From: Saprospiraceae bacterium
Lineage (GTDB): Bacteria > Bacteroidota > Bacteroidia > Chitinophagales > Saprospiraceae
NCBI GenBank assembly: GCA_020436935.1
Contig: JAGQWX010000048.1
Coordinates: forward strand, 1-39,204
Reading direction: 5' to 3'
DNA: 39,204 nucleotides
In this document: one piece after another, positions 8,267 to 38,122 of the stretch
How positions within the stretch are numbered: the stretch's first letter is position 1
Layout of the letters: each line of letters opens with the position of its first letter
The notes under the pieces: model-generated
What the model was told of the DNA's origin: nothing
What the model saw: the letters and a program-made list of their open reading frames with translations, nothing else
Databases searched by the model: none
Program-made: the position numbers and the translations under genes

Positions 8267-9328
8267 CTATTTGATAAAATCATTGAGATTTGTGGCAATA
8301 GATAGATGGTTGGTCCCTCCAGCCAGGTGATAATAACCTACACCATAATCGATTCTGAATTGCTTGATTTTAAGGCCGAAGCCCAGGGAAAACCCACCCA
8401 AGGATCTGAATTGGCTGACCTTGAGTTCTTGTCTTCGCAGATGATTGTACGCCCCCCGAACCACAAAGTTTTCGTTTTTTCCAAGTAAAAACTCTCCATT
8501 GAAGATCACATGGCGAAAAAAGTTGTCGATGCCTGCAGAAAATGCCGATGGATTGATCTCCTGCCCCAGCAAGTCTACATCCGCGTTGTAATCGGGGTCA
8601 TCATATCGAAGTGACCACTGCTGTAAATTCTGGACGACCACTCCAAATCTCAAGGGCATGTGTTTGAGCTTATTGGTAAAACCCACAAGTATATTGAATG
8701 GCATCCCGTATCGGGTACCTGTGTACGTCGATGTTTCCAGCCCAAGATTGCGTATGACAAAAGAAAGCGACGTGCGTCCCTCGTTGGTTTGATAATGCAG
8801 TGAGCCATCTACAGCCAGACCCGAAGCCTTGTATGATTCAAGGTTTGAAAATATTGCTTTGATGTTTGTCCCGACTGTCAATTTTTCGTTCAGTGGTCTT
8901 GAAGCACCAAGGACAAATGCCAAATCGTTGGCTTTGAACTGTCCATTTTTCACTCCCACTTCATCGGCAAGGGTAAATTCCCCATAATTGGCAAAAACTA
9001 TTCCCCCGTGGGCATTCAAATTGTACTTTGCAAGACGTCTTCCATACGCAATCTGGCCATTGGATATACCGTCAAATACAAAGTTGTAATTGATCGCCAG
9101 GGCATTGTCCATCTTGTCATTAGATAGTCCGGGCGTTGCCAATGCAAGGTTAACATCGCCGTCTGCAATGGTCACCAACTGACCACCTACTGATGTAAGT
9201 CTGGCACTCCCCGGCAAATTGAGGAAAGTGAAGGCATGCTGACGAACGGGCTGTGCCTGCAGGGCAAAAACCATCATCATCAAAAAGCCAACTTTTATCC
9301 CTTGGTGATATTTTCTTCTTCTTTCCAT
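8267..9328 (-). CDS. porQ: Type IX secretion system protein PorQ
   Basis: Outer-membrane beta-barrel protein of the PorQ family, part of the PorU/V/Q/Z attachment complex that processes type IX substrates at the cell surface. The chain has a signal peptide (hydrophobic GFLMMMVFALQAQ) followed by the family-typical FTFLNLPGSARLTSVGG, an alternating strand pattern, and the glycine-rich GGFSLGFGLKIKQFRIDYG block near the end. The frame is open to a TTG at 9340, but the ATG at 9328 gives a better signal peptide and is preferred (353 residues). It overlaps the end of the upstream lipoprotein gene by 34 bases, so the two are probably translationally coupled. The other attachment-complex members are not in this window. 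Confidence 0.87.
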   Translation of the reverse strand: MERRRKYHQGIKVGFLMMMVFALQAQPVRQHAFTFLNLPGSARLTSVGGQLVTIADGDVNLALATPGLSNDKMDNALAINYNFVFDGISNGQIAYGRRLAKYNLNAHGGIVFANYGEFTLADEVGVKNGQFKANDLAFVLGASRPLNEKLTVGTNIKAIFSNLESYKASGLAVDGSLHYQTNEGRTSLSFVIRNLGLETSTYTGTRYGMPFNILVGFTNKLKHMPLRFGVVVQNLQQWSLRYDDPDYNADVDLLGQEINPSAFSAGIDNFFRHVIFNGEFLLGKNENFVVRGAYNHLRRQELKVSQFRSLGGFSLGFGLKIKQFRIDYGVGYYHLAGGTNHLSIATNLNDFIK

Positions 9329-9909
9329 ATAGTTGTGCAAACCCCCAGGCTGTCACATTGCATTTTTTTGATCAGTTTGCCGTTTACATCAAAATGTTCC
9401 AACAAACCAAATTCATGATCGCCATTTAAATATTGGCCTTTCCATTTGACAACGCCATTGTCATAATATTCTATAAACGGGCCGTTTTCGTTGCCGTCGA
9501 CAAAGGTAACTTCTTCTGCCAATTTTCCATTTTCATGGTATTTATAAAATGGTCCGATGAGTTTATTGTCTTTGTAATTGCTGTCTACCCTGAGCTTTCC
9601 TGAAGGGTAATACACCTTTCTTGGGCCATGTAACAAACCATTTACGTAGGTTGCTGTATATTCCAGGTTTCCATCTTCAAAAAATATTTTTCTGATGCCA
9701 TTTTGCTCGTTATCAATGTAAATGGTTTCTTCTGCTACTACGCCATTCTCAAAGTATCTGTAATACTTACCGTTTTTCTTCCCACCCTCATTTACCTCAT
9801 ACTTTTCCTTGAGCTTGCCGGAATCATAAAATGTTTTCTCATATTTAGTACACGACATTATCGAAATCACTATCAGAAATGAGCCCATTCGGATCAATGC
9901 ATTCATCAT
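9295..9909 (-). CDS. MORN-variant (YwqK-like) repeat lipoprotein
   Basis: An outer-surface or periplasmic lipoprotein built of about six MORN-type repeats of roughly 23 residues. Each has the pattern Y-x-NG-K/V followed by a glycine-turn unit such as NGKYYRYFENG or NGPFIEYYDNG. The signal peptide ends in a lipobox (SIMSC, Cys20). Such proteins are often labelled as YwqK-family antitoxins in databases, but the lipobox makes a classical antitoxin role unlikely. Its 3' end overlaps porQ by 34 bases, which hints at a link with the type IX export machinery or the cell surface. The exact function is unknown. Confidence 0.8.
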   Translation of the reverse strand: MMNALIRMGSFLIVISIMSCTKYEKTFYDSGKLKEKYEVNEGGKKNGKYYRYFENGVVAEETIYIDNEQNGIRKIFFEDGNLEYTATYVNGLLHGPRKVYYPSGKLRVDSNYKDNKLIGPFYKYHENGKLAEEVTFVDGNENGPFIEYYDNGVVKWKGQYLNGDHEFGLLEHFDVNGKLIKKMQCDSLGVCTTIWKEEENITKG

Positions 9910-10208
9910 AACTAAAAACCTTATTGATTATGGAAAAACGCAAGACAGTGTCAAAAGTGTATGTATTATGGGCAAAGAAGTGCAATAAATACGCGACGCA
10001 AGCCACAATTACAATCGCTTAATTCTGTACAGTTATAAAAAATAGAAGAGCATTATTGAATGTTTGGATAAACCGATATTTTCAAACTGGCAATCAATCT
10101 TTGGGCAGCGCATCTTTCAAACAAAATTCATTTTTTTAAAAAAACCAAATGAGTCATTGCATGATGCTGTATATCAAAATCGATTTATCTATGGTTGCAT
10201 TACAATAC
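9910..10208. other. Intergenic region between the MORN lipoprotein gene and hemD
   Basis: About 300 bases with no supported gene. A plus-strand open frame starting at 10064 runs into hemD antisense and has no family features. The right edge borders the inverted repeats around the hemD stop codon. A promoter for the minus-strand lipoprotein gene is expected in the left part, but I only see one-mismatch -7 boxes. Confidence 0.5.
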
Positions 10209-12045: not shown

Positions 12046-13299
12046 GTGGATGACAACAAATTTCTAAGAATTGTCCTACCGGGCATATTTGCGATCGCCG
12101 GACTGGTTGGTGTGCAGGCGTACTATCTTTTAAAAAGCTGGGATCTCAAGGATCAGGAGTTTGATACAACGATGCACATCATTTTGAGCAAGGTTGCCAA
12201 TGAGATTGCAAAATACAACGACACAGTCCTGCCCAAAAAGAATTTGATACAGAGAAGATCCTCAAATATCTATGCGGTCAATGTCAATAGTTCAATTGTT
12301 CCTTATGTTGTGGAGGACTTTCTGTACCAGGAGTTTACCAATGCTTCCCTGACGACTGATTTTGAGTATGCTGTATTCGATTGCCACAGCAACGAGTTGG
12401 TTTATGGCAACTACTGCCGGTTCAATGAAAAAGACAGGCCTGTATACCAGGCATCGCTTCCCCGATTTGATGAATTTACGTATTACTTTGTCATTAAATT
12501 TCCGGAAAGGGAGAGCTTTCTCCTATCCAATCTCAGCTTCAATCTGACTTTCGCGTTATTGGCAATCCTGGCCTTGTTTTATTTTGTTTATACCAGCTAT
12601 GAAGTTGCCAGACAGAAAAAATTATCCAAGCTGCAGATTGAGTTCATCAACAACATGACGCACGAATTCAAAACTCCGGTATCTTCCATAAAAATAGCCG
12701 CTAATGCATTGCTCAACAGCAAGCTTGTCAAATCTGATGAAAAGCTTGAGAAATACGTCAGCATCATCAATGACCAAAACAGCAGAATCAACAATCAGGT
12801 GGAGCGCGTTTTGAGCATAGCCAGTGTTGAAGACGATTTTCTGCAACTCAAAAAGGTGGATTTCGATCTGGTATCTGTTGTCGAAAAAATCATTGATCAG
12901 GAAAACATCAAGCAAGGCCAGGCACTCATCAGTATGGAAAGCTGTTGCGATAGCCTTATCATTAATGCTGATGAAGTACACTTTACGAACGTCATCTTCA
13001 ATCTCATCGATAATTCTCTTAAATACAACGAAAAAGAGCCAAAAATCACGGTGAACATAGACCAGGACCAAATTGGAAAAATCATTTTAAGTATTCAGGA
13101 CAACGGCATAGGCATTGCCAAAGAAGAGCAAAAAAACATTTTCGACAAATTTTACAGAGTGAGTACCGGTGACAGACACGATGTGAAGGGTTTTGGTCTT
13201 GGCCTTTTTTACATTAAAAATATCTGTGAAGCGCATGGCTGGCAGATCTCATTGCAATCTGAAGTCCGTGAGGGAACAAAAATTTCAATCATTATATGA
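12046..13299 (+). CDS. Sensor histidine kinase with large extracytoplasmic domain
   Basis: Membrane sensor of the Bacteroidota type in which a first transmembrane helix (about residues 7-29) is followed by an extracytoplasmic domain of some 130 residues and a second helix (about 164-184). The H-box has H206 (NNMTHEFKTPVSSIK), the N-box N323 (NLIDNSLKY), then QDNGIGIA (351-358) and GFGLGL (382-387). It starts with GTG; an in-frame stop lies 12 bases upstream, and no ATG precedes the first membrane helix. It overlaps its response regulator by four bases (ATGA). The two cysteines at 113 and 124 in the sensor domain could form a disulfide. The signal is unknown. Confidence 0.9.
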   Translation: MDDNKFLRIVLPGIFAIAGLVGVQAYYLLKSWDLKDQEFDTTMHIILSKVANEIAKYNDTVLPKKNLIQRRSSNIYAVNVNSSIVPYVVEDFLYQEFTNASLTTDFEYAVFDCHSNELVYGNYCRFNEKDRPVYQASLPRFDEFTYYFVIKFPERESFLLSNLSFNLTFALLAILALFYFVYTSYEVARQKKLSKLQIEFINNMTHEFKTPVSSIKIAANALLNSKLVKSDEKLEKYVSIINDQNSRINNQVERVLSIASVEDDFLQLKKVDFDLVSVVEKIIDQENIKQGQALISMESCCDSLIINADEVHFTNVIFNLIDNSLKYNEKEPKITVNIDQDQIGKIILSIQDNGIGIAKEEQKNIFDKFYRVSTGDRHDVKGFGLGLFYIKNICEAHGWQISLQSEVREGTKISIII

Positions 13300-13976
13300 A
13301 AGAAAAAGTACTGTATGTAGAAGATGACGAATCTTTGGCATTTCTCACAAAAGAGGCCATGGAAGAAAATGAGCTGGAAGTCATCCATTTCGACAATGGA
13401 AAAGATGCCATGTCTTACTTCAAAAAAGAAGTACCTGATATTTGCATCTTTGATGTCATGCTCCCAAAGCTTGATGGATTTAACCTGGCCAAAAATGTAA
13501 GACAGCTCAATTCGCACATACCGATCATATTCGTCACTGCCAGAACACTGAGTCAGGACAAGATTGCGGGATTTGAAATTGGAGGCGATGACTACATTAC
13601 CAAACCTTATGAAATTGAAGAACTTTTGTTCAAAATCAGGGTCTTTTTAAAGAGGAAGTTGATAGTTGAAAAGCCGGAAGAAGTTGTAAAAATCGGGGCT
13701 TATACCTTTGATTATTCAAATTTATCACTCCTTGTAAACCAGGAGAAAAGAATGCTTACCCAGCGGGAAGCTGACCTGCTCAAAATGCTTTTCGAAAATA
13801 AAAATAAAGTGGTCAAACGAGAAAACATCCTCGAAATGATCTGGGGAAAAAATGATTATTTTCTTGGCCGTAGCCTGGATGTATTCATCAGCAGACTCCG
13901 AAAATACCTCAAGAGCGACGATAGCCTAAGTCTCGAAAATGTACACGGTGTAGGCTTTATGCTTAAAACCTTATAA
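13296..13976 (+). CDS. OmpR/PhoB-family response regulator
   Basis: Cognate regulator of the overlapping kinase. The receiver domain has D11 in the acidic pocket, phosphoacceptor D53 (IFDVMLPKLDG), T81 and K103 (YITKPYEIEEL). The C-terminal winged-helix domain ends in the usual NVHGVGFML. It starts with the ATG of an ATGA overlap with the kinase. Its end overlaps the end of the convergent transglutaminase-DUF2126 gene by six bases. Proximity to the peptide-ligation cluster does not prove that it controls it. Confidence 0.92.
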   Translation: MKEKVLYVEDDESLAFLTKEAMEENELEVIHFDNGKDAMSYFKKEVPDICIFDVMLPKLDGFNLAKNVRQLNSHIPIIFVTARTLSQDKIAGFEIGGDDYITKPYEIEELLFKIRVFLKRKLIVEKPEEVVKIGAYTFDYSNLSLLVNQEKRMLTQREADLLKMLFENKNKVVKRENILEMIWGKNDYFLGRSLDVFISRLRKYLKSDDSLSLENVHGVGFMLKTL

Positions 13977-16900
13977 CAACTGCAAATCCAGGGTCATTGG
14001 AAATTCATCATTGACAGGCAATTGGTAAGGCTCAAATGAGTCTGCAATTGTTGTCTTTGGATTGAGAAATTTACCTGTGCCCTTCACAGGAGCAGCAGTC
14101 GGATTGATGACCGACACCGGATTTACCGGGCTGTGATTTTCTTCGTAGAACCTGGTGACCCTTCTGCCTTCGGCTTCAAAAGCATTGATGGGGAAGGTAT
14201 CGTAAGATCTTCCGCCCGGGTGCATCACATGATAAGTACAACCGCCGATCGACCTTTTGTTCCATGTATCATAAATGTCAAAAACCAGCGGCGTATCTAC
14301 CCCTTTAGTAGGATGCAACGCCGAAGGTGGAGCCCAGGCTTTGTACCTGATCCCAGAAACATATTGCATGGGCACATTGGTGGGTTTCATCGGTACAATG
14401 CACCTGTTGCACAGCAACTGATATCTGTCAGGGTTGAAATTTTTGAGCACGACTTCTATGCGTTCCATAGAAGAATCAACAAATCTCGCTGTACCACTGC
14501 TCGACATTTCTTCTCCCAGAACATTCCATGGTTCGATTCCTGCCCGCAATATCAACTCGGTTTCGTCGATAACCAATCTGCCTAATGTAGGAAATCTGAA
14601 TTCAAAAAATGGTTCGAGCCATTCCATTTTGAAAGCAATGCCTTCGTCGTTGAGATATTGCACTACATCTTCCATGTCCTTTCTCACATAATGATGGATC
14701 ATGAAACGGTCATGGAGTTCGCTTCCCCATTTGATGAGCTTGTGTTTGTATGGTTTTTTCCAGAATGATGCCACAAGTGCACGTATCAAAAGCAACTGGA
14801 CCAATGCCATATCTTCCTGCGGAGGCATGTCAAAGCCCCTCAATTCCAGTATACCGAGCCTTCCTGTGGATGAGTCGGGGCTATACAACTTGTCGATACA
14901 AAACTCTGATCTATGGGTATTACCGGTAATGTCCGTCAGGATATTTCTAAACAACCTGTCCACCAGCCAGAAAGGAGGGTCCTCATGCTTGGCCAACTCT
15001 TTGAATGCGATGTTGAGATTATAAATCGCGTCGGGCTTACCTTCATCGACCCTGGGAGATTGTGAAGTCATACCCACAAACGGTGAACTGAACAGATAGG
15101 AAAGACATGGGTGATTGACCCAGAAAGAAATCATACTCTGCAATAAATCAGGTCTTCTCAACAATGGGGAATCCTCAGGCTTGCTGCCTCCAAGTGTAAT
15201 GTGATTTCCCCCACCAGTACCAGTATGTCTTCCGTCAAGCATAAATTTTTGGGCTCCCAGCTTTACATTTTTTGCCTCATCAAACAAAACACTGTATTTA
15301 TCCACTATTTCTTTCCAGTTCTTTGATGGGTGGATATTGATTTCCAAAACACCAGGATCGGGTGCAATGGCAAGTTTTTCTATTCTTTTGTCATAAGGTG
15401 GCTGGTAACCTTCAATGAGCACTGGCAAGCCCAGCACTTCGGCAATGTGCTCAACGCTCGCAATCAGATCAAGAAAAGGTTCGATTGTTTTCACCGGTGG
15501 CAGGAAAATGGAAATGTTTTCATTTTTGAGTGAAATACACAAAGCTGTTTTGATGGTTTGGACTTTACCATGAGTTTCGCCAAACTTGTTGTTTTGTTTT
15601 CTTTTTATGATCCTGTATCGCACAGCATCTGGTTCGGGCAAACCTTCCACTGGTTCCAATGGATCCGGAGGAAGCACGATGGTGGCAACATCCACAGATT
15701 CGACGGGCAGTCTGTCCAGAGGAAGTCTATATCCTACATCACTGTTGCCCGGTATCAAAAAGAGTTTGTCGCGTTTGATTTGCCACTTACAACTTTTCCA
15801 TTTTGATCCGGTGTAATCCCATTCCAGCGGTATGACAATGCCCGTTGGTTTGCCAAGATCGTGGTCAAGCAATTGGGCCAATGTTTTTCTGGCTATGGAA
15901 TCTTTGAGGTCAATGCCCTTTACGTCAATATTCAAGGGTAGGTTGTTCTCTTCCCATGCGTAATAAAAAAGGTCTTCGTAAGCCAGATGTACACAATCCT
16001 TCGAGAGCCCAAGGCACGATGCAAGGGCATTGGCAAACAGTTCAATATTGCCAAAATTCATTTTGCCGTTCGCATTTGGATCTGCAAATGGGACCTTATT
16101 ATTCCAAATGGGCAAACCGTCCTTTCTCCAGTAGATGGCGTATTGCCATCTTGGTATCGGCTCTCCCGGATACCATTTGCCCTGGCCAATGTGAATCAAT
16201 GCATCTTTTGAAAAACGGTTGCGCAATCTCAGTGTGAGATCATAGCCCAGTTTTCTTTTATCTTCTCCGTCCGCTGCTTCATTCCACTGATCAGATTCCA
16301 TATCTGTAGAGGAGACAAAAGTAGGTTCTCCACCCATCATCAATCTTGCATCACTTTCTTCCAGCATTTCATCAATCGCAAAGCCGAGTGCTTTGATTTC
16401 TTCCACCTGGTGCTCATCGTATGGCAATGTCACCCTGGGAAGTTCTTTGACCCTGGTGACACTGTTGGCGTACTCCATGGTGGAGGTAGTAGGTTCTGTA
16501 TATCCTGAGACCGCTGCAGCACTTACAGGATCAGGCGTACAAGCCAATGGAATATGGCCCTCTCCTGCCAGCAAACCGGAGGTAGCATCCAGACCTATCC
16601 ATCCAGCCCCGGGAATAAATACCTCGGCCCATGCGTGTAAATCAGTAAAATCCTCTTCAGGACCATTGGGGCCATCCACTACTGTTTCATCGGGTTTAAG
16701 CTGGACCAGATAACCGGACACAAAGCGGGCCGCTAGTCCAAAACTTCTGAGCAATTGTACTAAAACCCAGCCGGAATCCCTACACGAGCCAAGTGCCTTG
16801 CCAAGCGTTTCTTCACAGGTTTGGATACCCGGCTCCAAACGAATGACATAATTGATATGATTGGTCACATGTCTGTTGAGGTTGACCAAAAAGTTGACAG

Positions 16901-17324
16901 TATTTTCTCCGAGATATTGGGTTACTTCTTCTTTTAGAGACATGAGCAATGGGCCTTGCTCCTTGATTTCGAGGTATGGAGTGAGCTCTTTTTTGAGCTG
17001 CGCATCGTATTCAAATGGAATCTTTTCCGCATATTCTTCCAGGAAAAAATCAAACGGATTGAAGGTTACCAGGTCAGCCACTATATCTACGTCAACGACC
17101 ATATCTTTTACCAGATCCTGAAAAACCACTCTTGCATTGTAATTTCCAAATGGATCTTGCTGCCAGTTGATGAAATGATTTTCCGGTTGAATTCTCAGAC
17201 TATAACTAACAATAGGCGTGCGCGTATGAGGGGCAGGTTTCAATCTGAATACCTGCGGAAATACTTTTATTGGTCTGTCATAAGAGTATTTTGTATGATG
17301 GTTTATCGCAACACGTATCGACAT
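13971..17324 (-). CDS. Transglutaminase-DUF2126 fusion protein
   Basis: A very large (1117-residue) cytoplasmic protein without signal peptide. Residues 1-90 match the bacterial transglutaminase-like N-terminal domain. Residues 150-260 form the transglutaminase core with an apparently intact Cys-His-Asp triad: C181 (GSCRDSGW), H230 (DLHAWAEV) and D246 (GLDATSG). From about 300 to the end is DUF2126 with GGEPTFVSS (331-339), GQGKWYPGEP (380-389), PDPGVLEINIHPS (656-668) and GTGGGNHITLGG (702-713). Published domain analysis (Iyer, Aravind and colleagues) placed this region among circularly permuted glutamine-synthetase-like ligases. The chain could thus join an amide-forming and an amide-cleaving or exchanging activity. 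It is transcribed divergently from the ATP-grasp/alpha-E/Anbu operon, with 159 bases between the starts. Confidence 0.9.
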   Translation of the reverse strand: MSIRVAINHHTKYSYDRPIKVFPQVFRLKPAPHTRTPIVSYSLRIQPENHFINWQQDPFGNYNARVVFQDLVKDMVVDVDIVADLVTFNPFDFFLEEYAEKIPFEYDAQLKKELTPYLEIKEQGPLLMSLKEEVTQYLGENTVNFLVNLNRHVTNHINYVIRLEPGIQTCEETLGKALGSCRDSGWVLVQLLRSFGLAARFVSGYLVQLKPDETVVDGPNGPEEDFTDLHAWAEVFIPGAGWIGLDATSGLLAGEGHIPLACTPDPVSAAAVSGYTEPTTSTMEYANSVTRVKELPRVTLPYDEHQVEEIKALGFAIDEMLEESDARLMMGGEPTFVSSTDMESDQWNEAADGEDKRKLGYDLTLRLRNRFSKDALIHIGQGKWYPGEPIPRWQYAIYWRKDGLPIWNNKVPFADPNANGKMNFGNIELFANALASCLGLSKDCVHLAYEDLFYYAWEENNLPLNIDVKGIDLKDSIARKTLAQLLDHDLGKPTGIVIPLEWDYTGSKWKSCKWQIKRDKLFLIPGNSDVGYRLPLDRLPVESVDVATIVLPPDPLEPVEGLPEPDAVRYRIIKRKQNNKFGETHGKVQTIKTALCISLKNENISIFLPPVKTIEPFLDLIASVEHIAEVLGLPVLIEGYQPPYDKRIEKLAIAPDPGVLEINIHPSKNWKEIVDKYSVLFDEAKNVKLGAQKFMLDGRHTGTGGGNHITLGGSKPEDSPLLRRPDLLQSMISFWVNHPCLSYLFSSPFVGMTSQSPRVDEGKPDAIYNLNIAFKELAKHEDPPFWLVDRLFRNILTDITGNTHRSEFCIDKLYSPDSSTGRLGILELRGFDMPPQEDMALVQLLLIRALVASFWKKPYKHKLIKWGSELHDRFMIHHYVRKDMEDVVQYLNDEGIAFKMEWLEPFFEFRFPTLGRLVIDETELILRAGIEPWNVLGEEMSSSGTARFVDSSMERIEVVLKNFNPDRYQLLCNRCIVPMKPTNVPMQYVSGIRYKAWAPPSALHPTKGVDTPLVFDIYDTWNKRSIGGCTYHVMHPGGRSYDTFPINAFEAEGRRVTRFYEENHSPVNPVSVINPTAAPVKGTGKFLNPKTTIADSFEPYQLPVNDEFPMTLDLQLL

Positions 17325-17483
17325 AAAATTTCAATTTTTCGAATGAGAGTACAAATAATTTTATTAAAACAAGATCAAACAAAATAGCATACTTTAGCGT
17401 GTCTTGCCCAAAATTTATTTTGCTAAAACTACAAAATTTGATGATTTACTTCTATAATAATTTGTAAAAAACAAGTTACTTTT
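17325..17483. promoter_or_regulatory. Divergent control region of the ligase/peptidase cluster
   Basis: A 159-base AT-rich gap separates the divergent starts of the transglutaminase-DUF2126 gene and the ATP-grasp operon and must hold both promoters. I find only one-mismatch -7 boxes on the plus strand (around TTATTTTG and AAAATTTG) and a short-spaced TATTTTG on the minus strand. No operator palindrome stands out. Confidence 0.4.
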
Positions 17484-18995
17484 ATGGGAACCCGAAAAAT
17501 ACCATTTAATTTAACCAGTCGCGAAATAGGAAAATTCAACACCATGCAGAATCTTTTGGGCCAATACAAATTGAAAGACGGATGTTTTGATGAAGTTTTT
17601 GAGCAAAAAGGCACATACCGACCCGAATACAAACTGCTCGAATCCATCGCCAACAATATGGATGTTTCTACTTTTTATAGTTTGAATGAAGAAGCAAAGT
17701 TGAGCTTTTTCAACCAGGGTATAACTTACGCCTTATACACTGCACAAGAGTCTACAGAAACCATATTCCAATTTGATCTGATGCCCAGGGTGGTATCGGC
17801 CGAAGAATGGGATGTACTTGAAAGAGGTCTTATTCAAAGGAATACCGCCTTAAACATGTTCATCCATGATGTGTACAATGACGCGAAAATCCTCAAGGAC
17901 AAAGTGGTTCCGGCTGACCTGATTTATTCCTCTAAACATTTTGTGCATGAAATGAAAGGATTTAGTCCTGTCGGTAATATTTATTGCCACATCGCGGGTA
18001 CTGATCTGATCAGACATTCAGACGGGAATTACTATATTCTGGAAGACAATTTGCGAAGTCCTTCAGGTGTAAGTTACGTACTGTCCAACAGGGTGACATT
18101 GACGAGGACTCTTCCCAACTTATTCCAGGGCAAGAGGATTCATCCTGTTTCGCAATATCCCAAAGAATTGCTTGAAACGCTCAGATCGGTCAGCAATCAG
18201 CAGGAGGATGATGTAGTTTGTGTTTTACTAACACCGGGCCAGTACAACTCAGCTTATTACGAACATTCTTTTTTGGCAAAAATGATGGGTATCGAGTTGG
18301 TGGAAGGTCCTGATCTTTTTGTGGAAAATGACAAAGTTTATATGAACACCATAGGCAAAAAGGTAAAGGTCGATGTCATTTATCGCAGGATCGACGATGC
18401 TTTTCTTGACCCGGAGGTTTTCAGAAAAGATTCCATGTTGGGCGTTAAGGGACTGATGAATGCCTATCTGAAAGGCAATGTTACGATCGTAAACGCTCCT
18501 GGCACAGGCATTTCTGATGATAAGGCGGTGTGTGTTTTTGTGCCGGACATGATCAAATATTATCTTTCTGAAGAACCAATTATTTCTAATGTTCCCACCT
18601 ATATATGTGAAAAACCGGCTGATCTGGCTTACGTCTTGGAAAACATATCTTCTATGGTGATTAAGCCTGTGGATATGTCGGGGGGATACGGCGTGACCAT
18701 TATGGAAGAGCTGACCAAAGAGGAAACGGAAGAAGTAAAGGAAAAAATCAAGGCCAATCCGCGTGAATATATTGCCCAACCGAAAATGATGCTTTCCTGT
18801 CATGCCACTTATATTGAAGATCTCAGGCAATTTGAGCCAAGACACATTGACCTTAGGACCTTTGCACTCATGGGAAAAGACCGGTCATACATTTTGCCTG
18901 GAGGTCTTACACGCGTTGCCTTAAAAAGAGATAGCCTCATTGTGAATTCATCTCAGGGAGGAGGATCAAAGGATACTTGGGTAATGATGAATTAA
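17484..18995 (+). CDS. Circularly permuted ATP-grasp type 2 ligase (DUF404/DUF407)
   Basis: A 503-residue soluble protein of the COG2308 family, predicted to form amide or peptide bonds through an acyl-phosphate intermediate. Conserved blocks are present: YDEVF-like FDEVFEQKGTYRPEY near 35-49, QRNTALNMFIHDVY at 118-131, EDNLRSPSGVSY at 187-198, VIKPVDMSGGYG at 392-403, PRHIDLRTF at 452-460, and QGGGSKDTW at 491-499. The last blocks correspond to the nucleotide- and metal-binding parts, moved by the permutation. It heads an operon with the alpha-E and Anbu genes. The substrate is unknown; a peptide-tag or small peptide product is the published prediction. Confidence 0.9.
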   Translation: MGTRKIPFNLTSREIGKFNTMQNLLGQYKLKDGCFDEVFEQKGTYRPEYKLLESIANNMDVSTFYSLNEEAKLSFFNQGITYALYTAQESTETIFQFDLMPRVVSAEEWDVLERGLIQRNTALNMFIHDVYNDAKILKDKVVPADLIYSSKHFVHEMKGFSPVGNIYCHIAGTDLIRHSDGNYYILEDNLRSPSGVSYVLSNRVTLTRTLPNLFQGKRIHPVSQYPKELLETLRSVSNQQEDDVVCVLLTPGQYNSAYYEHSFLAKMMGIELVEGPDLFVENDKVYMNTIGKKVKVDVIYRRIDDAFLDPEVFRKDSMLGVKGLMNAYLKGNVTIVNAPGTGISDDKAVCVFVPDMIKYYLSEEPIISNVPTYICEKPADLAYVLENISSMVIKPVDMSGGYGVTIMEELTKEETEEVKEKIKANPREYIAQPKMMLSCHATYIEDLRQFEPRHIDLRTFALMGKDRSYILPGGLTRVALKRDSLIVNSSQGGGSKDTWVMMN

Positions 18996-19024
18996 TTTTG
19001 ATTGAACGGGGAAAACAAAATACT

Positions 19025-19969
19025 ATGCTAGTAAGAGTTGCTGAAAACCTATATTGGACAGGTAGATATATCAAAAGAGCGATGTATCTGTCTAAGTTTC
19101 TGAGGGTTCAATATTTTTCGACACTGGATGCCTCCATGGCCCACAATCTGGAATTCACCTTGCGGTCTATTCAGAATATTTTTGGAAACGACACCAGCAG
19201 CGAAAAAAAGCTGGTGGAAGATGAAGTCTTGTTTGAAGTAGGCTTCAAGAGTGATAATCCTTCTTCCATATTTTCTACTATTGCCGCTGCCAGAGAAAAT
19301 ACAAGGGCGTTGCGTCATGTATTGTCAACAGAAATCTGGGAATCCACCAATATGATGTATCATTTCGCCAGAACCTACAATACAGATTATTTTGTGGAAA
19401 GAGGCTTGTATGATTTTACTACTAAGGTAGAAGAGAAAGTCAAAATCATCAGGTCCAATATCCATTCTACCATGATGCGCACGGATGAATACTATTTTCT
19501 TATGCTTGGATCGTGGTTGGAAGAAGCGATGCAGATCCTAAGAATATTAAAATCAAAGCTCAGTGACACTGAAATCCTGAGTCAAAACGGTGAAAATATT
19601 CCGATTATGCAATACCAGTGGACCATTACGCTTAAAGCTTTAGAGTCTTTTGATCTCCACAACAGGTATTTTCATAATTCCACAAGCATCAAATCCGTAG
19701 TAGAGTTTTTGATTTCGACTTACCAGTTTCCGCGGTCGCTGTTCTATAATTTCACACATCTGATCAGGGATGTAAAGAAGATTTCTATTAAGCCGGAAGG
19801 GTTTTCTGACTTTGTATTTATGCTTGAAAAACTCGAAAGTGACGCAAAATTTTTCAAATATGAAGATAATGATCAATTGCACGAATTTTTAGATGATTTA
19901 ATCGTGCGAGTGGCCAGTATTCATGATATTTGTGGCCAACTTTATTTTAATAAATCCAGTAACTCATGA
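19025..19969 (+). CDS. Alpha-E domain protein (DUF403)
   Basis: An all-helical 314-residue protein of the COG2307 family with no known catalytic site, almost always found with the circularly permuted ATP-grasp protein. The start is set at ATG 19025 because the family begins with M-L-x-R-VAENLYW-x-GRY, exactly as here (LVRVAENLYWTGRY). A longer frame from a TTG at 18977 would overlap the ligase end. Conserved pieces include REN-x-R-x-LR (ARENTRALRHV) and the WE-x-x-N motif (EIWESTNMMYH). It probably serves as partner or scaffold of the ligase. Its stop overlaps the Anbu ATG by four bases. Confidence 0.88.
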   Translation: MLVRVAENLYWTGRYIKRAMYLSKFLRVQYFSTLDASMAHNLEFTLRSIQNIFGNDTSSEKKLVEDEVLFEVGFKSDNPSSIFSTIAAARENTRALRHVLSTEIWESTNMMYHFARTYNTDYFVERGLYDFTTKVEEKVKIIRSNIHSTMMRTDEYYFLMLGSWLEEAMQILRILKSKLSDTEILSQNGENIPIMQYQWTITLKALESFDLHNRYFHNSTSIKSVVEFLISTYQFPRSLFYNFTHLIRDVKKISIKPEGFSDFVFMLEKLESDAKFFKYEDNDQLHEFLDDLIVRVASIHDICGQLYFNKSSNS

Positions 19970-20715
19970 CATATTGCCTCGGCATCAAGGTAAAAGAAGG
20001 TCTTGTAGCCATAGCTGATACAAGAATCACCTCTGGCACCGAAACCACTACTGCGAAAAAAATTTCCATTCATAAAAACGGGAAAAACAACCTGTTTCTG
20101 ATGACCTCAGGATTGAGATCTATCAGGGATAAGGCCGTTACCTATTTTGAGGAGTTGCTGGAATCAGACGAAATTCCCTATGATAAGATGTACAAAGCTG
20201 TCAACGCTTTTGGCTCACAACTTCGCAGGGTAGCTGATGAAGATAAAGTTTCGCTCCAGGAATCAGGGCTGTTTTTTAATCTGTTTACCATCGTCGGAGG
20301 CAAGCTCCAAAACGATAAGGAGCACAAACTCTTTTTGCTGTATCCTGAAGGCAACTGGATCGAAATTGGTGAAGCGACTCCTTTTTGTATCATTGGAAAT
20401 TCCGGCTATGGCAAACCCATACTCGCACGTGCCCTGACTTCTGATTCGTCCATAAAGTTTGCGCTAAAAACGGGGTTTTTATCCTTTGACTCCACAAGAG
20501 TTTCTGCCAATGATGTTGGCTATCCCATAGATGTAGCCATCTTCAAAGTTTCTGAAGGAAGTCTTATTGAAAAGCGATTTCATGAAGATGATCTCAAGGA
20601 CCTTGGTATTATGTGGGGCAACAAGCTGAGGGAAGCCATACTGGAAATACCTGACCTTTGGATAGAAGATATGATGAGTATGCCTGATACCAGGTTCATC
20701 AATCTACAACAATAA
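19966..20715 (+). CDS. Anbu-type proteasome-like peptidase
   Basis: A 249-residue NTN-hydrolase-fold protein of the Anbu family (COG3484). The chain starts MTYCLGIKV; removal of the initiator methionine would expose threonine as the N-terminal nucleophile, without a propeptide. D18 in AIADTRITSG matches the proteasomal Asp17, and the lysine pair at 31-32 is the likely Lys33 equivalent, though the offset should be checked on an alignment. Anbu rings are known structurally, but clear peptidase activity has been hard to show, so 'peptidase' is a family-level call. Its ATG overlaps the alpha-E stop (ATGA), which ties it tightly to the ligase operon. Confidence 0.9.
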   Translation: MTYCLGIKVKEGLVAIADTRITSGTETTTAKKISIHKNGKNNLFLMTSGLRSIRDKAVTYFEELLESDEIPYDKMYKAVNAFGSQLRRVADEDKVSLQESGLFFNLFTIVGGKLQNDKEHKLFLLYPEGNWIEIGEATPFCIIGNSGYGKPILARALTSDSSIKFALKTGFLSFDSTRVSANDVGYPIDVAIFKVSEGSLIEKRFHEDDLKDLGIMWGNKLREAILEIPDLWIEDMMSMPDTRFINLQQ

Positions 20716-24106: not shown

Positions 24107-24268
24107 AGATAAATAAGCGAAGCCCTCGGTTGAAAACAGTCTTTCGTCCTGCTCAACCGTCTCGTAAATTTCTATAGAACAATTTTCTATGGCAAAAGCA
24201 GTTTTGCACCTTTTCTCAATACAATTTGTCTTACCTTGCATTTAATAATTCATGACGATTTGCTGGAA

Positions 24269-24904
24269 ATGAAATCATACAAGGATGAGAAAATCGAAAG
24301 AATTTTCCCATTAGAAAATGGCTTTATTCTTTGGCCCAGGCCCAATCATGTCAGGACCTTCAAGCAGATATTGATGATTCATCAACACCTGTTTGAGGAA
24401 GTCGTTCCCGGGCGGGACTCTATTGCTGTCCTTTCCACATCAAAAACCAGAGAGCAATTGTTTTATCTTGTACTGGATCTTTTGGAAGACTTTTCTATCC
24501 AGGAAGATGATGTCATCAACCCGCGTCAACATCTTTTGCCCATCCAATATGACTGGAATGGTGAAGACGTCTTAGGGCTTTGTAAGCTTCTATCCATCGA
24601 CCAGGAGAGCTTGTTTGAAATCCATGCGTCCTGCACTTTTACTGTTGAGTTTTTTGGCTTCCTTCCCGGCTTTCCTTACATGAGTGGACTTGCTGAATCG
24701 CTCCAGGTTCCCCGCAAATCCAGGGCGACCAAGAATGTAAAAGCCGGCAGTGTCGCCATAGCCAATGATATGTGCGGCATATATCCGCAGGATTCACCAG
24801 GAGGCTGGCATGTCATCGGCCACATTGAGGAACCGCTTTTTGATGCGCGTTTGGAACCACCGTCTTATATTTTTCCGGGTGATGCTGTCAACTTCATCCC
24901 TTAA
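24269..24904 (+). CDS. pxpB: 5-oxoprolinase subunit B (KipI family)
   Basis: With PxpA and PxpC it forms the ATP-dependent prokaryotic 5-oxoprolinase that turns pyroglutamate back into glutamate. The family blocks FFGFLPGFPYMSGL, KAGSVAIAND and GIYPQDSPGGWHVIG are all present. The ATG at 24269 is chosen because family proteins begin a few residues before the first strand (here RIFPLENGFIL). A TTG at 24236 would add 11 residues of no family character. The gene lies three bases upstream of pxpC. In Bacillus the homologue KipI inhibits the kinase KinA, a secondary role not inferable here. Confidence 0.88.
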   Translation: MKSYKDEKIERIFPLENGFILWPRPNHVRTFKQILMIHQHLFEEVVPGRDSIAVLSTSKTREQLFYLVLDLLEDFSIQEDDVINPRQHLLPIQYDWNGEDVLGLCKLLSIDQESLFEIHASCTFTVEFFGFLPGFPYMSGLAESLQVPRKSRATKNVKAGSVAIANDMCGIYPQDSPGGWHVIGHIEEPLFDARLEPPSYIFPGDAVNFIP

Positions 24905-24907
24905 GGC

Positions 24908-25744
24908 ATGCAGGGATTTGCGCAAATATTGACACCGACAACATGTATGAGCATTCAGGATGGGGGCAGAAAAGGGATGATGCATCTGGGCATACCTGCT
25001 TCTGGATATATGGACCATCAAAAGGCTCATTTTGCCAATGAAGCTGTGAAAAATGTTGAAGACGCTGCGTGTCTGGAAATATTCGGTAATGGATGCAAAA
25101 TCAGGTTTTCACATCCCACACTTTTGGGCATGGCTTCCGATGGGGCTGAATTATTCGTGAATGAAAATAAGGTGGCATCAGCTTGTTGCATGTTGGGTAT
25201 TCATCAGGGCGATGTCGTAAGTATAAAAAACAATCTTACCTGGACCTATCTTGCCATTTCCGGAGGCTGGCAATCCCCGATAGTTCTGGGCAGTAAAAGC
25301 ATGATGAAAGGTATAAGTCCTCAAGCAATGCTCACAAAAGGTCAGGTGATCCCCTATGAATCTGCACCTGACCAGGACTTATGCATTCAATGGAATCATG
25401 AATTTGAATCGATACAATGTTTTAAGGTAATACCAGGACCCGAATTTTCGAAATTGAAAAACCCACCTACCCAAATAGAGCTTACCATTTCTCCTCAGTC
25501 AGGCAGACATGCCACCATTCTGGAACACAATACAATGCTGAAGGGTGGCGAGATACCGTCAGGCGTCACAATTCCCGGAACCATTCAAATGACCCCAGAT
25601 GGAAGCATTTATGTGCTGAACCGAGACGCACAAACCACAGGAGGTTATTACAGAATAGGATTTATTGCTGCAAAAGATTTAGACCTATTCAACCGAAACA
25701 AAGTCGGTGAAAGGATAAGCCTGGAATTTGATCTGAGTTTATAA
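24908..25744 (+). CDS. pxpC: 5-oxoprolinase subunit C (KipA / biotin-dependent carboxyltransferase-like)
   Basis: Partner of PxpB, with the allophanate-hydrolase subunit 2 fold. Blocks seen are TCMSIQDGGRKGMMHLGIP near the N-terminus, SGYMDHQKAHFAN, the LAISGGWQSPIVLGS core, and the C-terminal GGEIPSGVTIPGTIQ and RDAQTTGGYYRIG. At 278 residues it is shorter than the Bacillus and Escherichia proteins (over 300), but every core block is there. It follows pxpB by three bases and its end overlaps the convergent aldehyde dehydrogenase gene by six bases. pxpA, the LamB/YcsF-type subunit, is not in the window. Confidence 0.88.
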   Translation: MQGFAQILTPTTCMSIQDGGRKGMMHLGIPASGYMDHQKAHFANEAVKNVEDAACLEIFGNGCKIRFSHPTLLGMASDGAELFVNENKVASACCMLGIHQGDVVSIKNNLTWTYLAISGGWQSPIVLGSKSMMKGISPQAMLTKGQVIPYESAPDQDLCIQWNHEFESIQCFKVIPGPEFSKLKNPPTQIELTISPQSGRHATILEHNTMLKGGEIPSGVTIPGTIQMTPDGSIYVLNRDAQTTGGYYRIGFIAAKDLDLFNRNKVGERISLEFDLSL

Positions 25745-34605: not shown

Positions 34606-35853
34606 TCAGGCAGCTTTGAGTTTGCTGATCTTAGACTTATTTATTTTTTCCTCTGCCAGTGATTTGTCCACAACAAATTCCGAAACGTTTTTGGTGGATG
34701 GAAGTTCAAACATGGCATCTTTGAGGATGGCTTCACAAAGCGACCTCAGACCTCTTGCACCAAGTTTGAATTCCAATGCTTTGTCTGCAATGAATTCCAG
34801 AGCATCTTCCTCAAACTTCAATTTGATACCCTCCAGCTCAAACAATCTGCCGTACTGTTTTACCAGGGCATTTTTGGGTTCTGTCAGTATTGAAATCAAA
34901 GTTGATTTATCGAGTGGCTCCAGATATGTAAGGACGGGCAACCTACCCAACAACTCTGGTATAAGGCCAAAAGATTTCAAATCCTTATGGGTGATGTATT
35001 GAAGAAGATTATCGTTGTCTACTCTTTCGTCTTCTCTCTTCCCGTATCCTATGATTTGGGTATTGAGTCTTTTTGAAATCTCTTTCTGGACACCGTCAAA
35101 TGCACCTCCACAAATGAAAAGGATATTTCTGGTATCAACTTTGATCATCTTTTGCTCGGGGTGCTTTCTACCGCCCTGCGGTGGAACATTCACTTCCGTA
35201 CCTTCCAGCATTTTCAACATGGCCTGCTGAACACCTTCTCCGGAAACATCCCTTGTTATGGAAGGGTTGTCCCCTTTACGTGCAATTTTATCAATCTCAT
35301 CGATGTAAACGATTCCGCGTTCGGCAGCCGGTACATCATAGTCACAAGCCTGAAGCAATCTGGTCAACATGGATTCAACATCCTCACCCACGTACCCGGC
35401 CTCCGTAAATACGGTAGCGTCCACAATGGCAAAAGGCACATCCAAAAATCTTGCAATGGTTTTAGCCATCAATGTTTTTCCAGTGCCCGTTTCTCCTACA
35501 AATACAATGTTAGACTTTTCAATTTCTACATCGTCTTTGGTCTTTTGTTTTAGTCTTTTGTAGTGATTGTAAACGGCTACAGAAATGGTCCTTTTGGCAT
35601 CATCCTGACCTATGATGTATTCATCCAGGAAAGATTTGATGTCCTTTGGTTTGTATTCCAGGCCAAAGTTGTTGGTCTGTTTTTTCTTTTTACCGTCATC
35701 AAATGGGTCCTGCACTTCATCATTGATGATCTGGTAGGCCTGCTCAACACACGATTCACAAATGTGTCCTTCAAGTCCTGCGATCAGAATTAGCGCATCT
35801 TTTTTGTCCCTTCCACAAAAAGAACATTTGATATTTTCTTTAAACTTTGCCAA
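34606..35853 (-). CDS. clpX: ATP-dependent Clp protease ATP-binding subunit ClpX
   Basis: AAA+ unfoldase that feeds proteins to ClpP. The N-terminal zinc finger uses C10, C13, C32 and C35. Walker A is GETGTGKT (120-127) and Walker B is VYIDEID (182-188), with the pore loop GYVGEDVE (153-160). The ClpP-docking loop reads IGY at 268-270 where many ClpX proteins have IGF. The start codon is TTG: the frame has a stop a few codons upstream and no ATG, and [15 protein letters not shown] is the expected N-terminus. clpX follows clpP with a hairpin between, and lolA follows it. Confidence 0.95.
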
Positions 35854-35969
35854 TGCTAGAAATTATTGATACAATATTTTATTTGCTGTTGTAATATAAG
35901 CCTATCAGAGAAAATAGACACCAGATCGTTGCCCTCAACTTTCCAGGCCATTGTGTTTTCCGATAAGTA

Positions 35970-36000
35970 TAACAATAAAGGGGACTAAAAAATCCCCCTT
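35970..36000 (-). terminator. Hairpin between clpP and clpX
   Basis: AAGGGG (35978-35983) pairs with CCCCTT (35995-36000) around an A/T-rich loop. On the minus strand the stem is followed by TATTGTTAT. It probably ends part of the tig-clpP transcript, so clpX likely has additional initiation in the 160-base gap. Confidence 0.5.
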
Positions 36001-36013
36001 ACTGAAAATTATC

Positions 36014-36712
36014 TTATTCTGGTTTACGTGGATTGCTTCTGTCGAGCACCTCATCCACCAATCCATAATCTTTTGCTTCATACGAGGTCATCCAGTTGTC
36101 TCTGTCGGAATCTCTCGCGATGTCATCAAATGTTTTGTTGGTATGTTGAGCAAGGATATCGTACAATTCCTGTCTCAACTTGCTGATCAGTTTGTAGCTG
36201 ATCTCCATGTCAGAAAACTGCCCCTGCATTCCTCCCGAAGGCTGGTGAATCATCACTCTTGAATGCTGAAGGCATGATCTTTTGCCAGTTTTACCCGCTG
36301 CCAGAAGTACTGCACCCATAGAAGCGGCCATACCTGTACAAATGGTAGCAACATCCGGAGAAACATACTGCATGGTATCGTAAATACCCATACCATCGAT
36401 AACGCTTCCCCCCGGGCTGTTGATAAACATCTGAATGTCTCTCTTTGGGTCAGTTGACTCCAAAAACAACAACTGGGCCTGGATCACATTGGCCACATAG
36501 TCGTTGACTGGCACACCCATGAAGATGATTCTGTCCATCATCAACCTGGAGAACACGTCCATACCAACTATGTTGAGTGTGCGCTCCTCGATTACCTGAG
36601 GCGTGAATCCCTTGATATTGGGTGCCGCAGCATCCATATAATGCTCAAGGTGCATTGAGCTCATTCCCAGGTGTTTGGTAGCGTACTTTTTAAATTCGTC
36701 TTTCGGAAACAT
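36014..36712 (-). CDS. clpP: ATP-dependent Clp protease proteolytic subunit ClpP
   Basis: Serine peptidase that forms the 14-mer degradation chamber used by ClpX. The nucleophile is S131 (CTGMAASMGAVLLAAG), the base H156 (RVMIHQPSGG) and the acid D205 (DSDRDNWM). The 232-residue chain has an N-terminal extension of about 35 residues before the usual core, possibly cut off on maturation. It lies 30 bases after tig in the conserved tig-clpP-clpX order. Confidence 0.96.
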   Translation of the reverse strand: MFPKDEFKKYATKHLGMSSMHLEHYMDAAAPNIKGFTPQVIEERTLNIVGMDVFSRLMMDRIIFMGVPVNDYVANVIQAQLLFLESTDPKRDIQMFINSPGGSVIDGMGIYDTMQYVSPDVATICTGMAASMGAVLLAAGKTGKRSCLQHSRVMIHQPSGGMQGQFSDMEISYKLISKLRQELYDILAQHTNKTFDDIARDSDRDNWMTSYEAKDYGLVDEVLDRSNPRKPE

Positions 36713-36742
36713 GCGATTTTGTTTTTAGTTATGAAAGCATTT

Positions 36743-38122
36743 TTATTCAGCTTCCACCTCAGCTGTTTCTTCGACTCTCAGTTCTTCAAATGCTTTAAGG
36801 CTGATTTCTTTTGTGTCTTTCTGGATGAGTTTTTCGATCTCGGAGAAGATCTTGTTGCTCAAAATAATATTGGAAGCCTTGTATACTTCATTGCGGTCTT
36901 CCTTCATCCTTTTTAAAACTTTATCAAATATGCCTTGGTCGAAGAAGCCAAACTGCTGCATAAAGCTGTCTGCTTTACTCATCAAATATTGGTCCACTTC
37001 ACTATTTGTCACCTGCACTCCCAATCTGTTTTGCATTTCTCCCTGAATTATAGACCATTTAAAGTCTTTTTGGAAGGATTCGTACATTTCTTCTACCTTA
37101 TCGGCTGACATATTTTCATATTCCCTGAGCCATCTTTTGACAAAAGTGTCAGAATAGGTCAGTTCGGTTTCGTTGTACATGCGCTTGTAAATGTCGTCAA
37201 ACAACTTTCCTCTTACCTTATCGTCGTGTTCGTGCTGTGCATTTCTTGAAAGAATTTCTCTGAGTTTCTCCATAGAATCCACATCATTTTGTCCGAAAAG
37301 TTCTTTGACTTTTTCATCGTCCAAAACAATCGGCATCTTTCTTTTTACTGCCTCGATGGTAAGTTCAAACATATCGTTGATGGCGCGATCATCGTCTTCA
37401 TCTACCTGAAGCAAAGACTTTCTCACGTTGTCAGCGTCTCTGAAAGAAAATTCGTTGATGTTCACCACCACTTTATCACCCTTCTTCAAACCTACAAATT
37501 TCGCCTGTTCTTCTTCCTTAATGGCGAAAACATCAAGTTCGAAAGCAGAATGCCATCCGTCTTTTTTTGGAGTAAGTTCTTCATTGAGTTCTACTGCCGA
37601 TACATCTACTTTATCATTGATTTCAACAGCTTCGTCAACTATTTCCATTTTACCATAGGCGTGCTCAAGTTCCTTGATTCTATCTTCAACCACATCCTCA
37701 CTTCCGGTGATGGTATAAGTTTCATATACATCTTCAGGACTGATGCCTTTGATGTCGAGTTCATTTCTTGTGCCTACTTCATACTCAAACGTGTAGGAAG
37801 CGTTGGCATCTGCCGGATTGAGGCTTATGGATTGCTGACCTTCTGCAGGTAATGGCTGACAAATGTAGGGCACATTATTTTCGTGGAGGTATGCATATAT
37901 CTTTTCAGAAAACATCTTGTCTAAGATTTCAGCAAGTACACTTTCTCCATACATTTTCATGATGACGTGGTCTGGAACGTGTCCTGCTCTGAAACCTTTG
38001 AGGTTGGCTTTTGCTTTTACGCCTTTAAGTCTGTCTTTAAATGTCTGGCGGTAATCAGAGGGTTCAAGCGTTATACTTAACTTGCTTACCATGTCTGCAA
38101 CTTCTGATCTATTGATGTTCAT
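36743..38122 (-). CDS. tig: Trigger factor
   Basis: Ribosome-bound chaperone that meets nascent chains at the exit tunnel. The N-terminal domain has the ribosome-docking motif GFRAGHVPDHVI (residues about 43-54). The middle domain is a diverged FKBP-like region (KKGDKVVVNINEFSF), and the helical C-terminal arms contain the acidic ending VEETAEVEAE. At 459 residues it has normal length. Peptidyl-prolyl isomerase activity is doubtful, because the classical FKBP active-site signature is not evident. It is the first gene of the tig-clpP unit, with a -7 box about 135 bases upstream. Confidence 0.92.
   Translation of the reverse strand: MNINRSEVADMVSKLSITLEPSDYRQTFKDRLKGVKAKANLKGFRAGHVPDHVIMKMYGESVLAEILDKMFSEKIYAYLHENNVPYICQPLPAEGQQSISLNPADANASYTFEYEVGTRNELDIKGISPEDVYETYTITGSEDVVEDRIKELEHAYGKMEIVDEAVEINDKVDVSAVELNEELTPKKDGWHSAFELDVFAIKEEEQAKFVGLKKGDKVVVNINEFSFRDADNVRKSLLQVDEDDDRAINDMFELTIEAVKRKMPIVLDDEKVKELFGQNDVDSMEKLREILSRNAQHEHDDKVRGKLFDDIYKRMYNETELTYSDTFVKRWLREYENMSADKVEEMYESFQKDFKWSIIQGEMQNRLGVQVTNSEVDQYLMSKADSFMQQFGFFDQGIFDKVLKRMKEDRNEVYKASNIILSNKIFSEIEKLIQKDTKEISLKAFEELRVEETAEVEAE

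Follow-up and report, generated by a model that had tools for sequence, protein, structure and literature searches.

The proteobacterial Anbu operon, known from Yersinia bercovieri and Pseudomonas putida (PP_2685-2688), encodes four kinds of proteins, which in the one-strand four-gene arrangement follow the order ATP-grasp ligase, alpha-E, transglutaminase (TG) and Anbu; PP_2687 is presumably alpha-E. Iyer, Aravind and colleagues are said to have predicted a bacterial peptide-tagging system from such neighbourhoods. In another kind of neighbourhood, a TG-DUF2126 fusion (TGD) is accompanied by an ATP-grasp ligase (GRASP) fused to alpha-E and by a free TG. The mycobacterial cluster is, we assume, also of this kind.

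The first descriptions of Anbu and its partner ligases date from 2008-2009, to go by what PMC5666114 and PMC6376114 cite, and the papers considered here name no substrate for them. Anbu was assayed with standard proteasome substrates (PMC5666114, PMC6376114). No peptidase activity is reported for Yersinia, Hyphomicrobium and Pseudomonas Anbu in the excerpt of PMC6376114, according to which neither peptidase nor amidase activity was found for Yersinia Anbu, no complex was found among the operon proteins, and the ATP-grasp protein frees phosphate from ATP. Pseudomonas Anbu binds proteasome inhibitors at Thr1, which shows a working nucleophile; Anbu-2 of Cytophaga was left unmodified by them (data not shown in that source), and the same excerpt reports Anbu expression as unchanged across various conditions and holds protein degradation likelier than peptide synthesis (PMC5666114). 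In the excerpts on P. putida, one published study describes strong nitrogen-dependent induction of Anbu, and another an induction of only 1.1- to 4.8-fold. These data are the best functional clue to the cluster discussed here, though carried over from another phylum.

The window analysed here (39,204 nucleotides) is one entire contig (C124) of a 5.8 Mb genome (G000) assembled in 181 contigs, the closest relatives of which, by Anbu comparison, are Saprospiraceae-type Bacteroidota. As judged from sequence, positions 13971-20715 hold the known Anbu-associated amidoligase system, with predicted functions, in a copy that is intact and typical of the lineage (Table 1). What the present analysis adds is a sharper delimitation of the core, the hybrid layout and, from fold comparison, support for DUF2126 as a glutamine synthetase (GS)-type ligase. 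The sequence-only reading had named the four genes with their coordinates and strands, which ORF calls, Pfam and PDB matches bear out, and had filed them under the Anbu-associated amidoligase neighbourhood of Iyer and Aravind, rightly so, as ATP-grasp, alpha-E, cluster-type TG and Anbu are all present. The Pfam and PDB scores of these predicted proteins exclude chance similarity; no NCBIfam model matches any of the four at E 0.001.

Table 1. Features of the Anbu-associated cluster of the window
Feature	Position	Strand	Description
TGD	13971..17324	-	Transglutaminase-like domain (residues ~1-275) and DUF2126 (~279-1114), by Pfam, invariant residues and fold searches
Divergent gap	17325..17483		Separates TGD from the plus-strand genes; promoters presumed
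GRASP	17484..18995	+	Circularly permuted ATP-grasp ligase, free (unfused) type
alpha-E	19025..19969	+	Helical protein PF04168; start in the ORF list TTG 18977
Anbu	19966..20715	+	Anbu-2 type proteasome-like NTN hydrolase

The GRASP protein is assigned by Pfam to CP_ATPgrasp_2 (PF14403, 528.5 bits) and to CP_ATPgrasp_1 as well, and matches PDB entry 3n6x (E 3.7e-147). Its start may be ATG 17544, as seen by eye from the L011 relative. GRASP-like genes also occur in 4 of 50,697 phage records, at 27-46% identity. The alpha-E protein (PF04168, 209 bits), the predicted model of which is all-helical with a mean pLDDT of 91.1, almost certainly begins at ATG 19025 rather than at TTG 18977: every one of the 65 aligned rows, the window among them, has M17. 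The apparent GRASP/alpha-E overlap therefore vanishes, and of the "overlapping or close genes" first described only alpha-E and Anbu do overlap, sharing 4 bases (19966-19969). Ligases of 847-895 aa containing both GRASP and alpha-E are found in several genomes; nine of them form one clade of the ligase tree with 100/100 support, and the window GRASP falls among the 40 free ligases of the same tree. The sister clade, where ATP-grasp and alpha-E are fused, speaks for a putative complex of the two where they are separate proteins.

TGD (1117 aa) comprises, according to Pfam, Bact_transglu_N, Transglut_core and DUF2126 (1165 bits). The TG residues C181, H230 and D246 are invariant in 28/28 aligned fusion proteins (window counted), as are many residues of DUF2126. 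With 172.7 bits against a profile of the free cluster TGs, the TG domain belongs to the cluster type, and this part of the predicted model matches 3isr in fold searches. The DUF2126 part matches glutamine synthetases in both Foldseek and VIA-align, with 254-289 residues aligned in 48 of 49 GS-fold rows; the Foldseek rows lie above E 0.001, the many VIA-align rows are redundant entries of one family, and the model is moderately confident (mean pLDDT 69.8, pTM 0.62) and poor at residues 201-230, which adjoin the TG histidine. A glutamine-synthetase fold is thus supported by the model, DUF2126 being probably GS-like at the fold level. The predicted structure is like that of GS, GmaS and YbdK, but identity is as low as 8-14% and DUF2126 has an additional C-terminal region. 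Of the earlier description of DUF2126 as a permuted GS-like ligase, the GS-like fold is supported, and the permutation found no support in sequential alignment: both Foldseek and VIA-align proceed in order along the chain, starting near residue 300 and reaching 912 or further, so that no permutation is needed. The word DUF2126 is absent from the open-access literature searched. Papers on membrane vesicles and Rlo (PMC12096838, PMC12239564) were set aside, since in the excerpts considered they concern a membrane-bound inactive TG.

Anbu of the window is recognized by Pfam only as a member of the general Proteasome family (27.5 bits), and five PDB sequences match it, titled Anbu (three) or "Peptidase" (two), with 5loy being the best (E 1e-35). 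The active-site residues T1, D17 and K31 are present, and the T1 nucleophile is expected to become exposed once Met is removed. The pocket reads I20-A29-T46-R50-R53, with R50 and R53 also present in 80/80 relatives, and on this basis the protein is classed as a basic-pocket Anbu-2. Anbu-2 of Cytophaga hutchinsonii, also one of the Bacteroidota, likewise has two S1-pocket arginines; its pocket is given as I20-A29-R46-R50-T53, and acidic specificity has been suggested in the excerpted source (PMC5666114). T46-R50-R53 and R46-R50-T53 are the same residues with positions 46 and 53 exchanged, perhaps through a difference of numbering or order. The claim that key motifs are intact holds for the cluster: the TG triad is kept, and among columns at least 95% conserved the window alters 0/136 in GRASP (54 relatives) and 0/67 in Anbu (80 relatives). 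A check for degenerate catalytic or ATP-binding residues likewise found none altered at the conserved GRASP columns or in the triad.

Related loci were fetched via Anbu; the 80 compared are the best 80 of 218 and were chosen by Anbu similarity, so that their counts are not population frequencies. Among these best 80 of 218, the window layout (TGD divergent from GRASP-alpha-E-Anbu) is the commonest, with 26 loci, and is shared by the nearest loci, L048 and L011; two further loci combine it with a free TG. The order GRASP-alpha-E-TG-Anbu is found in 12 of the best 80 of 218 (L047, with GRASP split over two ORFs, is a 13th), GRASP-alpha-E-Anbu-TG in 10, and Anbu alone in view in 10; the remaining 19 are partial or mixed, some being cut by contig ends. 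Unlike the proteobacterial operon, the window has its TG fused to DUF2126 in a divergent gene (TGD on the minus strand and the other three on the plus strand, as first read), so that the one-strand order is not found, carries no free TG in the cluster, and has an Anbu-2 with a basic pocket.

With the clusters of TGD, fused ligase and free TG (L114, L115, L116, L122) the window shares TG-DUF2126, ATP-grasp and alpha-E, but the ligase is fused (847-884 aa) and of a separate clade there and free in the window. The nine fused-ligase stretches include TGD or part of it in six (L114, L115, L116, L117, L122, L126) and a free TG in seven (L114-L118, L122, L126); Anbu is in view in one, L117, and not in view in the other eight. 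L117 (a Methylobacter record) is an exception to a clean split of the two neighbourhood kinds, as a distant Anbu (118 bits) and TG lie near its fused ligase and a free GRASP-alpha-E pair is also present. The window looks like a hybrid, combining TGD as in the fused-ligase neighbourhoods with a free GRASP, an alpha-E and an Anbu as in the other kind. Genome G016 has TGD divergent from GRASP-alpha-E on one contig and TG paired with Anbu on a different one (L132, L133). The open literature searched yielded no description of the hybrid layout, the founding paper lying outside that search.

Co-occurrence was followed in a family sample of 100 genomes, 98 of which reach at least 90% completeness with no more than 5% contamination; G000 is included on account of the window. 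GRASP is found in 17 genomes and alpha-E in the same 17. The cluster-type TG, detected with a profile of free TGs in which 2 of 17 rows come from G000 and G016 themselves, gives full-length matches of at least 163.5 bits in 17/17 GRASP genomes and no full-length match in the remaining 83, where the best hit, of 79.1 bits, covers the core part only. GRASP, alpha-E and TG together thus occur in 17 genomes and 0/83 others, or 16/16 against 0/83 with G000 left out; Fisher values for co-occurrence are tiny, but overstate the evidence because the genomes are related. Anbu occurs in 14/100 genomes (the query was the window protein, and a 41% match was still detected) and DUF2126 in 13/100, in both cases entirely inside the 17. 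Both are present in 11 of these, Anbu only in 3, DUF2126 only in 2 and neither in 1, with no mutual association between them. The sole genome of the same genus in the sample, G002, has none of the four genes.

ATP-grasp, alpha-E and TG, which coincide in 17/17 against 0/83, make up the constant core of the system in this sample; DUF2126 and Anbu can each be missing and represent separable add-ons. The four genes had been called a complete cluster and their co-conservation in relatives proposed as a check: the strong association holds, and so does co-conservation of GRASP, alpha-E and TG, but for the other two parts the check goes against a complete set, as Anbu is missing in 3/17 and DUF2126 in 4/17, and the four are not indivisible. 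In 9/13 DUF2126-bearing genomes no cluster-type TG occurs besides the fused one, all 4 DUF2126-lacking genomes among the 17 carry a free TG, and G000, G016, G041 and G050 have both; this distribution suggests that the fusion gene provides the TG function of the window cluster. Of 22 genomes in which the Anbu locus, as fetched, lacked GRASP, 20 have this gene at another place or past the fetched stretch (in G118 as a 74-position fragment), and it was not detected in G100 and G113, genome completeness not being given.

A second Anbu of G000 (contig C2:9313-10053), 57% identical to that of the window, is overlapped by a free TG (C2:8478-9323), the closest PDB entry of which is 3isr of C. hutchinsonii (E 2e-124). 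This Anbu alters 7/67 conserved columns, more than any of the 80 others (next 5), and R19Q is one of these changes. Position 29 of its pocket is K, and no terminal branch of the Anbu tree is longer than its own (1.24). Of 72,556 plasmid records, 25 contain matches to it at under 60% identity. Two Anbu paralogues are reported for C. hutchinsonii in the excerpted source (PMC6376114). GRASP, alpha-E and DUF2126 are present in one copy each in G000, and therefore two Anbu/TG pairs, if both active, would have to share the single ligase. Assembly contamination was considered and rejected: GC of C2 is 0.42 against 0.41, and its tetranucleotide correlation with the window is 0.921, compared with 0.96-0.98 for 11.8-kb window pieces (part of what they are compared with), 0.84-0.89 for contig C181 of G000 in 3.2-kb pieces and 0.20-0.86 for 13 loci of other records. 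Contig C2 probably belongs to the same genome as the window.

Among ORFs of at least 80 aa, chosen by length and recurring in at least 6 loci, two-component regulators recur beyond the core in 13 loci, window included; other families (one in 11 loci, two in 6 loci each) have no window member. The adjacent HK-RR pair (12046-13976) was rejected as a regulator of the system and is not counted in it, since no such pair was recognised beside TGD in five relatives viewed by eye. A phage or plasmid origin was likewise rejected; no relative of TGD or alpha-E was found in viral contigs. The proposed search for short conserved peptides had a negative outcome: no ORF of 15-90 aa in the cluster gaps or the 1.2 kb downstream is widely conserved (largest family 4 loci), and the gap 17325..17483 has none conserved with the window. 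A peptide encoded within the cluster is therefore unlikely.

The interpretation given by the sequence-only reading is, overall, partly supported. Sequence and fold comparison gives two predicted ATP-dependent amide-forming enzymes of different folds (ATP-grasp and GS-fold), a papain/transglutaminase-fold cysteine enzyme fused to the GS-fold ligase, an NTN hydrolase (Anbu-2) and an alpha-helical partner, found beside ATP-grasp among all ligase-bearing genomes of the family sample and fused to it within the sister clade. We tentatively propose that the cluster makes and takes apart a glutamate-containing amide under nitrogen control, both substrate and product being predicted. GRASP with alpha-E would activate a carboxylate with ATP and join it to an amine. 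The DUF2126 part could form a second, glutamyl-type amide, as GS-fold enzymes do, and the fused TG domain could transfer or hydrolyse a gamma-glutamyl-type amide. Anbu-2, with its two invariant pocket arginines, would cleave beside an acidic residue; glutamate is suggested as the substrate because of the GS fold and this basic pocket. The product may be a small nitrogen-bearing conjugate more probably than a protein tag, and the cycle would be cytoplasmic and probably tied to nitrogen supply, as the published P. putida data suggest. This glutamyl-amide cycle is opposed by the failure to find activity or a complex for Yersinia Anbu (PMC6376114, excerpt), by the unmodified Cytophaga Anbu-2 and the case for degradation with unchanged expression (PMC5666114, excerpt), by the disagreement of the two P. 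putida studies, by the moderate TGD model with its Foldseek rows above E 0.001 and redundant VIA-align rows, and by Anbu without detected GRASP in 2/22 genomes.

Alternatively, following the idea of Iyer and Aravind that the sequence-only reading took up, GRASP and TGD could add an amino acid or peptide to proteins, with Anbu removing the tag or degrading the tagged protein. The two predicted ligases adjoining a proteasome-like hydrolase would fit such tagging, as would the co-occurrence of Anbu with the ligase (14/14 in the family sample, 20/22 in the genomes whose fetched locus lacked GRASP); the cluster gaps and the 1.2 kb downstream, where no conserved gene for a short peptide was found, the absence of Anbu from 3/17 ligase genomes, and a report of neither complex nor peptidase activity (PMC6376114, excerpt) make it rather unlikely. 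Somewhat less probable again is a broader reading, where glutamate conjugates of amines, peptides or proteins would arise from the GS-fold part and ATP-grasp/alpha-E, gamma-glutamyl bonds would be edited by the TG domain, and Anbu-2 would be a dedicated caspase-like (after-acidic) hydrolase returning glutamate and nitrogen, the second, diverged Anbu/TG pair sharing the single ligase and giving a second specificity.

A role for Anbu in general protein degradation during nitrogen starvation, with the ligases serving another purpose, seems improbable to us. Degradation is argued on structural grounds in the excerpt of PMC5666114, where Pseudomonas Thr1 also reacts with proteasome inhibitors, and one P. 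putida study found nitrogen-dependent induction; against this, all 14 Anbu genomes of the family sample have the ligase, one P. putida study, unlike the other, shows weaker induction for Anbu than for any other operon gene, and in the excerpt of PMC6376114 standard peptides gave no activity. Very improbable is a graspetide-like route from a ribosomal peptide, or some other secondary-metabolite pathway: ATP-grasp ligases do make graspetides (PMC8939145, excerpt), but no conserved ORF of 15-90 aa that could be the precursor peptide lies in the gaps or 1.2 kb downstream, and, two-component regulators excepted, no recurring non-core neighbour family includes the window.

For the tentatively preferred glutamyl-amide cycle, the core of ligase, alpha-E and TG, the dependence of Anbu on this core, the predicted GS-type DUF2126 and the acid-favouring Anbu-2 pocket would narrow the search to glutamyl-type amides, and the same features say which proteins to assay together.

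The only circularly permuted ATP-grasp ligase (GRASP) and the only helical partner protein alpha-E detected in the source genome are the copies in the window. A diverged second Anbu, the proteasome-like NTN hydrolase, is located on another contig of this genome, where it overlaps a free 3isr-like transglutaminase (TG).

For the basic S1 pocket of the Anbu-2 subtype, the published description (PMC5666114) gives R46/T53, whereas T46/R53 is found in the family considered here (80 relatives). In an Elusimicrobia Anbu the predicted nucleophile is Ser, not Thr, and five conserved columns are changed. Another Anbu match, in genome G056, contains one in-frame TGA.

Two further gene groups of the window are listed in the table below. 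The carboxyltransferase-domain genes, which we take to be of the 5-oxoprolinase subunit type, are absent from the neighbour families recurring across the related loci. For the grouped ClpX-type, ClpP-type and trigger-factor genes, no connection to the Anbu-amidoligase cluster was seen.

Coordinates of features in the window and in compared loci
Feature	Location	Position	Remark
CT_C_D and CT_A_B genes	window	24236-25744	3.5 kb from cluster
ClpX-type, ClpP-type and trigger-factor genes	window	34606-38122	grouped
Second Anbu with TG	C2 (L091)	8478-10053	
Anbu, Ser nucleophile	L089	1807	Elusimicrobia
Anbu match, in-frame TGA	G056:C1 (L104)	460535-461257	
Fused-ligase set	L114	5460-14859	
Combined stretch	L117	5109-18000	Methylobacter

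GRASP-like genes (27-46% identity) are also carried by four phage-labelled records (CAKLQH020000004.1, CAKLQF020000002.1, MT835738.1 and MT835541.1), where they are perhaps host DNA.

In four loci (L114, L115, L116 and L122) the transglutaminase-DUF2126 fusion gene has as neighbours a ligase in which GRASP and alpha-E are fused, and a free TG, with Anbu not in view; in L114 and L116 the transglutaminase-DUF2126 gene also lies immediately beside free GRASP and alpha-E. The Methylobacter stretch brings together free, paired GRASP and alpha-E, a distant Anbu accompanied by TG, and the fused type of ligase, this last alongside TG and DUF2126.
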